The position numbers and the translations under genes were made by a program. Under the pieces are notes generated by a model. It had not been told where the DNA came from. It saw only the letters and a list, made by a program, of their open reading frames with translations, and did not search any database. Positions 3,061 through 5,858 of a DNA stretch of 41,568 bases are shown here, piece after piece. The stretch is taken from the NCBI GenBank assembly GCA_015490005.1, contig WFYS01000016.1, positions 1 to 41,568 of the forward strand. The letters are read 5' to 3'. Source of the stretch: Desulfurellaceae bacterium. GTDB taxonomy: Bacteria > Campylobacterota_A > Desulfurellia > Desulfurellales > Hippeaceae. The number at the start of each line of letters is the position of its first letter. The stretch's first letter is position 1.

Positions 3061-4083
3061 ATGAAGGGCGTTTTTGATTATTTGAAGTTACCAGAAGAGG
3101 TCAAAATAGAAGAACATAACGATAGATATGGTAGATTTGCTTTAGAACCATTGAATGAAGGATATGCTATAACGATAGGTAATGCTTTGAGAAGGATACT
3201 TTTATCTTCTATTCCTGGCATAGCTGTTGTTGGGGTTGAAATAGAAGGTGTAGAGCATGAGTTCAAAACTATAGATGGCGTTAAGGAAGACGTTTTAAAT
3301 ATTATATTAAATTTAAAACAGGTTAGATTCAGGGCGTTAGACGATAGTTTTAAATCTGGAGAGGTTTATATCAAGAAAGATACACAAGGTGTTGTAACTT
3401 CGAACGATATTGAAACTCCCGGAAATTTGGAGATTGTTAGTAGAGATGTTTATATAACTGAGTTGATGGAAGATGCCGAGTTTAGTATGAAAATTTTTCT
3501 GGAGAAAGGTATTGGCTATAGACAGGCTGATTACGAACTTATGAATAGGGATATAGGGTATATACCGGTTGATGCTTTGTTTTCCCCCGTTTCTAAAGTA
3601 GCTTATCATGTTGAGAATAGTACTGTGAGAGATTATTACGATTTGGAAAAATTAGTCTTAGAGATATACACAGACGGCACAGTTACACCTCAGTATGCTT
3701 TAAAGACGGCAAGTTATATTTTGGGCAGCTATGTTTCTGTATTTTCAAGCGATTTTAAGAGAATTGTTCCCGAGGATACTGTAAACCAAGAACAAGAGGA
3801 AGAGATTAACGATAACCTTTTAAAGCCTGTTGAAGAGCTAGAGTTAAATGTTAGAGCTTCTAATTGTCTTGTTGCTCATGATATTAAATATATTTACGAA
3901 CTTGTTCAAAAAACAGACGCAGAGCTGTTGAGTACTAAGAATTTCGGCAAGCAATCTTTGAAAGAGATAAAAGAGTCTTTAAAGCAGTTAGACCTTGAAC
4001 TTGGCATGAACTTCACAGATGAGCAGCTTAAGAAAATAAAGCAACTAATAGCTGAAAAAGAAGGAGAGGAAAATGAGACATAG
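3061..4083 (+). CDS. rpoA: RNA polymerase alpha subunit
   Basis: The alpha subunit dimerises to assemble RNA polymerase, and its C-terminal domain binds UP elements and activators. At 340 residues it has both domains: an N-terminal assembly domain (to about residue 230, with NALRRILLSSIPG) and a C-terminal helix-hairpin-helix domain (about 265-325, with VRASNCL providing the DNA-contact Arg/Asn, and KNFGKQSLKEI). A short acidic linker separates them. The 3' end overlaps the rplQ start by 11 bases, indicating coupling. Confidence 0.97.
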   Translation: MKGVFDYLKLPEEVKIEEHNDRYGRFALEPLNEGYAITIGNALRRILLSSIPGIAVVGVEIEGVEHEFKTIDGVKEDVLNIILNLKQVRFRALDDSFKSGEVYIKKDTQGVVTSNDIETPGNLEIVSRDVYITELMEDAEFSMKIFLEKGIGYRQADYELMNRDIGYIPVDALFSPVSKVAYHVENSTVRDYYDLEKLVLEIYTDGTVTPQYALKTASYILGSYVSVFSSDFKRIVPEDTVNQEQEEEINDNLLKPVEELELNVRASNCLVAHDIKYIYELVQKTDAELLSTKNFGKQSLKEIKESLKQLDLELGMNFTDEQLKKIKQLIAEKEGEENET

Positions 4084-4441
4084 GAAAGGATACAGGACGT
4101 TAAGTATAAACGGTGAGCACAGAAAGCATTTGTTAAGAAATTTGGCTATTTCGTTGATAGAAGAAGAAAGGATTAAAACAACAGATGCAAAGGCGAGAGA
4201 GCTTGTTAGATTTATAAGTAAGCTTGTAACATTGGCTAAAAATGACACATTGTCCACAAGGAGAAGAGCACTTTCTAAGCTTAACAACAACAAACAGGCT
4301 GTGAGAAAGCTTTTTGACAACATAGCCCCTAGATATGCAACGAGGAATGGTGGCTATGTGAGAAGGATTAAACTTGGATATAGAAAAGGTGATGCGGCTC
4401 CTATTTCAATAGTGGAGTTTGTTGAAGAAAAAAGTGAATAA
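4073..4441 (+). CDS. rplQ: 50S ribosomal protein L17
   Basis: L17 is a 50S protein near the exit-tunnel side. The typical start MRHRKGYRTL is followed by the HRKHLLRNLA segment and a GGYVRRIKLGYRKGD C-terminal region. Its ATG is preceded by AGGAGAGG inside the rpoA tail. It is the last ribosomal gene of the operon. Its stop (4439-4441) lies inside the start region of lspA, and an intrinsic terminator begins 22 bases further on. Confidence 0.96.
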   Translation: MRHRKGYRTLSINGEHRKHLLRNLAISLIEEERIKTTDAKARELVRFISKLVTLAKNDTLSTRRRALSKLNNNKQAVRKLFDNIAPRYATRNGGYVRRIKLGYRKGDAAPISIVEFVEEKSE

Positions 4442-4928
4442 ATCGTTAGCTTCTTCTGTTGTAGGAGTATCTTTGATACTCCTTTTTTTTATGCTCGATT
4501 ATTATACAAAGTTATATATTTCCAAACATATAGAACTAAACAGTGGTTTTTATGTAATAAAAGGTTTTTTTAATATTGTGGATGTTCGCAATAAAGGAGT
4601 GGCTTTTGGGGCTTTTGCCAATCTTCCACATTTGTTGAGACTTGTGCTTTTTAGCGGTATTAGTTTGATTGTTTTTGTTGCGGTGTTGTATCTGATTTTG
4701 TTTGGTAAAAACAAAAATCTAATTTATATTTTAGGTCTTTCACTCTTAGCTGGTGGAACTCTAGGTAACCTTTATGGTAGATTATTTAAAGGTTATGTTG
4801 TAGATTTTTTGGATTTTCATGTTGGTCAATACCACTACCCCGCCTTCAATTTGGCTGACAGTTTTATCACGATTGGCTTGTTTATCTTGATTATCTATAA
4901 AATGGTTAGTTCAAAAGCTAAAACTTGA
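4419..4928 (+). CDS. lspA: Lipoprotein signal peptidase (SPase II), one conserved Asp replaced
   Basis: LspA is an inner-membrane aspartyl protease that cleaves prolipoprotein signal peptides. Four hydrophobic segments are visible, as are the family blocks: D27 (LDYYTK), N-K-G-V-A-F-G (58-64), GNLYGRL (116-122), D129 (VVDF) and D147 (NLADS). D129 and D147 correspond to the catalytic pair. In the block normally reading GN-x-x-D-R, residue 120 is Gly instead of Asp. The start is uncertain: TTG 4419 (given), or GTG 4434, both overlapping rplQ. ATG 4491 would remove the first membrane helix. A perfect terminator hairpin (4463-4490) lies within the codons of that helix. Function is likely, but both oddities deserve checking. 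Confidence 0.88.
   Translation: MLKKKVNKSLASSVVGVSLILLFFMLDYYTKLYISKHIELNSGFYVIKGFFNIVDVRNKGVAFGAFANLPHLLRLVLFSGISLIVFVAVLYLILFGKNKNLIYILGLSLLAGGTLGNLYGRLFKGYVVDFLDFHVGQYHYPAFNLADSFITIGLFILIIYKMVSSKAKT
4463..4490 (+). terminator. Intrinsic terminator of the ribosomal operon, inside lspA coding
   Basis: GGAGTATC (4464-4471), a three-base TTT loop and the perfect complement GATACTCC (4475-4482) are followed by eight T (4483-4490); A4463-T4483 can add a ninth pair. It starts 22 bases after the rplQ stop, where an operon terminator would be expected. It is also in frame within lspA, where the U-tract encodes Leu-Phe-Phe of the first membrane helix. Confidence 0.85.
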
Positions 4929-5141: not shown

Positions 5142-5164
5142 AAAAAAAGGGGAAACCCCCCCTT
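5142..5164 (-). terminator. Intrinsic terminator of the UPF0173 gene
   Basis: Read on the minus strand, AAGGGG, a short G/T loop and CCCCTT are followed by a T run (plus-strand A run 5142-5148). It begins directly at the stop codon of the metallo-hydrolase gene. Confidence 0.8.
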
Positions 5165-5858
5165 AAATTTCTACAGATTCTCCTGGTTTGAGAATCTTAA
5201 CCTTTGCTTTGTTACCTACTAATTTTGCAAACTCGTTGGGGTCTTGTTTTATGATATCCCAAGCGCTGTAGTGCATAGGTATTACAATTTTTGGTTTTAA
5301 GAATTCAACGGCTTTTGCAGCGTCTTGAGTGCCCATTGTGAAGTTGTCGCCAATTGGTAACATAGCAACATCTAAACCGAGTTCTCCTATTAGCTGCATA
5401 TCCATAAATAAGCCCGTGTCTCCAGAGTGGTAGATTTTTTTGCCATCAAGTTCTACCACAACTCCGCAAGGGTTACCTGTGTATATTATAGTCCCATTAT
5501 CTTCGATAAATGCGCTTCCATGGTGGGCAATAGTCAACTTTACCCATAAATCGTTACTAAATCTTTTTGCTCCACCAATGTGCATTGGGTTTAACTTTTG
5601 TATACCTTTGCTTTGGCAGAACATGGCGAGCTCAAATGGTGCTATTAGTGTTGCATCGTTGTTTTTAGCTATATCAATGGCGTCTCCAATGTGGTCTCCG
5701 TGACCGTGTGTTACTATTACGTAGTCAACTTTAATGTCAGATGGTTTTAAACCGTATGTTATATCTGGGTTCCCTGTTATGAATGGATCTATGATGCACT
5801 TTGTTTTTTCACCTTCCAATAAGACTGCAGAGTGACCTAGTAAAGTTATTTTCAACAT
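5163..5858 (-). CDS. UPF0173 metal-dependent hydrolase (metallo-beta-lactamase fold)
   Basis: A 231-residue cytosolic metallo-beta-lactamase-fold protein of the UPF0173/YtkL family; the physiological substrate is not known. It starts with the family's short strand MLKITLLGHSAVLLE and has the metal motif H51-x-H53-x-D55-H56 (THGHGDH), a further histidine in AHHGSA, the HSGDTGLF motif and the late IPMHYSAWD histidine. All metal ligands are present. The SD AGGAGGTG lies seven bases before the ATG. It is transcribed alone and followed by its own terminator, divergent from the two-component genes. Confidence 0.9.
   Translation of the reverse strand: MLKITLLGHSAVLLEGEKTKCIIDPFITGNPDITYGLKPSDIKVDYVIVTHGHGDHIGDAIDIAKNNDATLIAPFELAMFCQSKGIQKLNPMHIGGAKRFSNDLWVKLTIAHHGSAFIEDNGTIIYTGNPCGVVVELDGKKIYHSGDTGLFMDMQLIGELGLDVAMLPIGDNFTMGTQDAAKAVEFLKPKIVIPMHYSAWDIIKQDPNEFAKLVGNKAKVKILKPGESVEI

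Follow-up and report, generated by a model that had tools for sequence, protein, structure and literature searches.

A terminator-like hairpin lies within the first codons of lspA, directly after the ribosomal-protein gene rplQ, and raises the question of whether it ends the ribosomal-protein operon and, if so, how a full-length lspA mRNA is still made. The window, that is, the whole stretch of 41,568 nucleotides that was analysed, corresponds to contig 16 in a draft genome of 1.62 Mb. It was compared within a sample of 19 genomes of its order of heat-loving sulfur bacteria (two families and six genera, one of the genomes being that of Hippea maritima) together with 6 further genomes of the phylum. 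The features of the locus are as follows.

4073 to 4441, plus strand: rplQ, ribosomal protein L17 (PF01196, E 3.7e-34), the last ribosomal-protein gene before the putative terminator
4434 to 4928, plus strand: lspA, lipoprotein signal peptidase II (PF01252, E 1.1e-35), with GTG 4434 as its likely start and an 8-nt overlap with the rplQ stop; N-terminal peptide VNKSLASSVVGVSLILLFF
4463 to 4483, plus strand: predicted terminator hairpin AGGAGTATC-TTT-GATACTCCT, read in the lspA frame; present in 19/19 genomes of the order, with 100% of pair cells paired and one compensatory pair
4483 to 4490, plus strand: T8 tract, codons CTT TTT TTT, invariant in 19/19 genomes though Leu and Phe allow other codons

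The hairpin and the start of lspA

The two arms of the hairpin form a perfect 9-bp stem with four G-C pairs around a TTT triloop, and the first base of the following run of eight T (T4483) is able to pair in the stem. The structure thus agrees with a sequence-only reading of this locus, which had described a perfect stem of 8-9 bp, a three-base loop and eight T. That reading had also set the hairpin 22 bases after the rplQ stop; the location is right, but counted from the TAA at 4439-4441 the stem starts after 21 nt. An intrinsic terminator is recognised in sequence by a stem of about 5-15 bp that contains G+C and closes a short loop, and by an uninterrupted U-tract directly 3′ of this stem, and both features are present here; RNA release would be expected in the region of about 4484-4491. 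The 61 nt around the hairpin fold with an energy of -15.7 kcal/mol, compared to -6.84 ± 2.36 kcal/mol for shuffled sequences (z = -3.75). The stem has -11.5 kcal/mol in the window, and across the genomes of the order its energy ranges from -11.4 to -14.2 kcal/mol at 37 °C and from -6.8 to -9.1 kcal/mol at 55 °C. As had been proposed from the letters alone, stem and T-run are also in frame in lspA, where GGA GTA TCT TTG ATA CTC CTT TTT TTT encodes GVSLILLFF, a segment that falls within the first membrane helix of the protein.

The earlier reading had considered that lspA might instead begin after the hairpin and lack helix 1, and this possibility did not survive the comparison. No stop codon interrupts the lspA frame across the hairpin and T-run in 19/19 genomes, each of which has a start codon 7-11 codons before the stem, and the position of the GTG start (4434 in the window) is shared with the nearest relatives. 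Furthermore, the solved LspA structure 6ryo aligns from residue 10 of the GTG-started protein and covers the hairpin-encoded residues. A start at ATG 4491 was rejected, since its position is not conserved (ATA, ATT, GTG, GCT and others are found there) and most of helix 1 would be lost, and TTG 4419, the start of the open reading frame, is a mechanical call to which GTG 4434 is to be preferred as likelier. Taken together, the open frame, the conserved upstream starts and the structural match indicate that lspA starts upstream of the hairpin. A full-length lspA transcript must consequently pass the hairpin, whatever its promoter; transcription from a promoter beyond the hairpin would avoid this, yet the LspA made in that way would lose helix 1.

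The start of lspA is also closely tied to the end of rplQ. Measured from the end of the rplQ stop, its position is -8 to +10 nt in 18/19 genomes; several of these have GTGA or TAATG stop-start overlaps, and a clear Shine-Dalgarno sequence is often absent. The distance from the rplQ stop to the stem is 19-36 nt in all but one of the genomes with rplQ in view, the remaining genome being G013 (L013), in which lspA and rplQ overlap by about 31 nt and the hairpin begins right at the rplQ stop codon.

We also considered whether the hairpin hides the Shine-Dalgarno sequence AGGAG of an internal TTG start at 4473, thereby controlling the translation of a short LspA. The AGGAG does lie 5 nt before this TTG and inside the stem-loop; however, the codon is CTG in four genomes, conservation of the T-run would be unneeded, the upstream starts are conserved and the solved LspA includes residues that would be lost, and we consider this explanation very improbable.

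Conservation of the hairpin and selection on the RNA

Each of the 19 genomes sampled from the order has an lspA gene, as do the 6 from the rest of the phylum, and rplQ lies immediately upstream of it in all four families of the phylum wherever the contig reaches. A pattern search for the hairpin followed by T7, with two mismatches allowed, gave a hit in 19/19 genomes of the order; there is a single site in each genome, and this site is in lspA and covers the same LspA codons throughout (in the G015 draft the hairpin is on two contigs, one being a contig-end fragment). In the 6 other genomes the pattern was found in none, with the rplQ-lspA order kept there and with helix 1 of LspA kept with other residues (AFYLIVFFF and similar) in the families without the hairpin. 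A genome-wide repeat was ruled out by the single occurrence per genome, a reversed-pattern control giving 0 hits. A wider contig search returned only distant LspA relatives, with no rplQ match at any of those loci.

The question raised by the sequence-only reading, whether hairpin and reading frame are both conserved in related genomes, is therefore answered for the 19 genomes of the order: both are. That reading had named as the opposing outcome relatives that keep the protein sequence and lose the hairpin through synonymous change, and the reverse was observed. We measured codon identity as the proportion of same-residue pairs that share a codon in a codon alignment of the 19 lspA genes. It is 0.885 for the nine codons of the hairpin and 0.489 in the rest of lspA, which places the hairpin first among 146 windows, and between genera the values are 0.870 and 0.455. 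In the f1-versus-f2 comparison alone the hairpin window (0.755 against 0.465 pooled) is not ranked first, because compensatory changes lower codon identity and there are few same-residue columns. The codons CTC CTT TTT TTT are invariant in 19/19 genomes, even though CTC makes up 7.7% of Leu codons in sampled H. maritima genes, and T7-T8 follows the stem directly and without interruption in every genome.

All nine stem pairs are kept in the 17 distinct sequences. In all three Desulfurella-type genomes, which represent the second family, an A-U pair has become G-C through GTA to GTG on one side and ATA to ACA or ACG on the other; the remaining variants are G-U wobbles or loop changes. The first of these two changes keeps Val and the second replaces Ile with Thr, which indicates that here the protein changed to keep the RNA stem. 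Nonetheless, since this sole two-sided pair change is one inherited event, the case for selection on the RNA leans chiefly on the conservation of synonymous sites.

T-runs come easily in the T-rich codons of a membrane helix, which would be consistent with a hairpin arising by chance or through protein-level constraint on helix 1. However, the chance that a gene for GVSLILLFF forms the stem and T7 under the codon usage of the genome is about 0.001 per independent lineage, and both families carry the hairpin although codon identity elsewhere is only about 0.47. Synonymous sites elsewhere vary freely, the compensatory change is a replacement, and families without the hairpin use other residues in this helix. 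We thus regard chance or protein constraint as an almost negligible explanation, and the pattern of conservation argues that the hairpin is kept by selection on the RNA.

Such selection need not act on termination, since a conserved stem would also suit an element for stability or processing, through which the ribosomal-protein mRNA obtains its 3′ end or has it protected. The T7-T8 run that is invariant after the stem in 19/19 genomes would, however, be unneeded for processing or protection, and we consider this explanation improbable.

Probable leaky termination or possible translational gating at the end of the operon

All 19 genomes of the order lack a recognisable terminator in the 350 nt downstream of lspA, and hence no intrinsic terminator other than the hairpin within the gene can be recognised where the operon ends. 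In the six other genomes of the phylum none was recognisable between rplQ and lspA, nor after lspA. In nine genomes of the order (L005, L007, L010, L011, L013, L015, L018, L020 and L021), only 0-5 nt separate the lspA stop from the end of a convergent neighbour, and a terminator could not fit after lspA.

We consider it fairly probable that the hairpin and T8 are a working intrinsic terminator that forms the 3′ end of the ribosomal-protein operon, and that a fixed leak through it sets a low dose of LspA. The terminator would end the ...rpsM-rpsK-rpsD-rpoA-rplQ operon while overlapping its last gene, lspA, and its retention near the 5′ end of the lspA coding sequence would date back to the order's ancestor. 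The majority of polymerases would release at about 4484-4491 to give the ribosomal-protein mRNA, and a minority would read through to give the full-length lspA mRNA, so that a very strong operon would yield little LspA relative to the ribosomal proteins and would be prevented from transcribing into the convergent neighbour. Rescue by tmRNA would presumably be needed for terminated transcripts, with their open lspA start; a search of five genomes found both Rho and tmRNA in each. The moderate energy of the stem fits partial termination at the growth temperature of 52-54 °C (PMC3156395), and the efficient action of E. coli terminators that lie no more than 100 bp into a coding region (PMC4824070) fits a fixed terminator at lspA.

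A fixed leak does not account for the signal staying in the coding region instead of between the genes; we can only infer that the overlap of stop and start leaves too little space there. Moreover, lspA is single copy and probably essential, and a terminator on its only route would therefore be costly unless it were gated. Gating by a riboswitch or an antiterminator-type attenuator found no support, since the longest upstream complement to the 5′ arm is 5-7 nt, as in shuffled sequence, and alternative pairing is thus no better than chance.

Gating by ribosomes is the mechanism that the sequence-only reading had put forward. Ribosomes leaving rplQ would restart at lspA, follow the polymerase and block the hairpin, so that lspA would be transcribed only while it is translated, in the manner of pyrL-pyrBI but with the structural gene as its own leader. 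The position of the lspA start at the rplQ stop, often without a clear Shine-Dalgarno sequence, is consistent with such a restart, and the placing of the start 7-11 codons before the stem puts the hairpin within reach of a ribosome of that frame. The pyr leader terminator is indeed suppressed by the advancing ribosome (PMC5021804), and terminators of E. coli fall below 10% efficiency at 5 nt from a stop codon and are fully active only beyond 27 nt (PMC4824070); the stop-to-stem distances of 19-36 nt, found in all but one genome, are near this limit. In G013, on the other hand, the stem begins at the rplQ stop, and a coupled ribosome would always disable it.

Short stop-to-stem distances and purine bias have been used as proxies for polymerases that outrun their ribosomes (PMC7858274, PMC13323073), which would speak against gating. 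By the same method, the distance is at most 12 nt in 17/33 terminators of the order compared to 9/35 in E. coli (Fisher p = 0.045, Mann-Whitney p = 0.077), in small samples with crude gene calls from three genomes of the order (L057-L116); one of these genomes, G004, does not show short distances. Gene purine content is 0.557-0.571 in the order against 0.518 in E. coli, a difference that thermophily may contribute to. Given the small samples, G004, the crude calls and this possible effect of thermophily, these proxies lean toward uncoupled transcription and no further. Weighing both sides, we regard translation-gated attenuation as possible rather than probable. In a more specific form, the first 20 or so lspA codons would act as a leader peptide, lspA mRNA would be completed only if an rplQ-derived ribosome follows the polymerase, and terminated transcripts would be non-stop messages cleared by tmRNA; this, too, we hold to be possible rather than probable. 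Were such leader-less gating to operate, the capacity for lipoprotein processing would be tied to the translation of ribosomal proteins.

Under either leaky or gated termination, every transcript of a single-copy, probably essential membrane peptidase must pass a predicted terminator in its own codons. The locus thereby offers a natural test, in a non-model order, of whether the ribosome stays near enough to the polymerase to override a terminator.

Known systems and further sites

The closest parallel to a fixed leak is rplL-rpoB of E. coli, in which an intergenic partial terminator after a ribosomal-protein gene lowers the dose of the downstream gene. Partial termination after a ribosomal-protein gene, with the next gene needed in a smaller amount, would be common to both; the lspA terminator, however, overlaps the downstream coding sequence, whereas the rplL-rpoB attenuator is intergenic. 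With pyrL-pyrBI of E. coli the locus shares an intrinsic terminator combined with a translated frame, a setting in which the advancing ribosome can suppress termination (PMC5021804). Unlike that system, lspA itself is the frame, with no separate leader peptide and no known pause signals or nucleotide sensing, and suppression by ribosomes is only hypothetical at lspA and may not apply in this order.

Terminators within coding sequences that give rise to mRNAs without a stop codon occur in arfA of E. coli and brfA of B. subtilis, in the latter case as shown by synonymous mutation combined with lacZ (PMC6881298). The brfA terminator is near the 3′ end of the gene and the truncated protein is functional, whereas that of lspA is located about 10 codons after the start. 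In contrast to arfA and brfA, truncation would leave about 20 residues of LspA, a product of no use, and the full-length protein is signal peptidase II and no rescue factor; the main purpose of the lspA terminator seems to be the ending of the upstream operon. The lspA case would accordingly be a variant of transcription attenuation placed near the 5′ end of a structural gene that is probably essential, with neither a useful truncation product nor a leader. A literature search for lspA-rplQ terminators returned nothing relevant, which is no proof that the arrangement is undescribed. Operon ends can sit hidden in coding sequence, and gene and terminator finders tend to exclude such sites.

Several observations from the window and the sampled genomes bear on terminators more generally. 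On the minus strand of the window, a G-rich stem with T7 at 5146-5165 directly abuts the stop codon of the convergent open reading frame 5163-5858(-), and at this further terminator-like site stop and stem are thus hardly separated. In the three sampled genomes (L057-L116), genes were seldom followed by a recognisable intrinsic terminator, with 8-15 such sites per 400 kb, and the same pipeline gave coding strands that are 56-57% purine in these genomes and 51.8% in E. coli. Lastly, Hippea maritima has a hairpin and T-run at L067:9497-9540, 15 nt into an open reading frame whose start overlaps the end of the preceding gene; this is possibly a second in-gene terminator, or else a chance occurrence in a glycine-rich motif.
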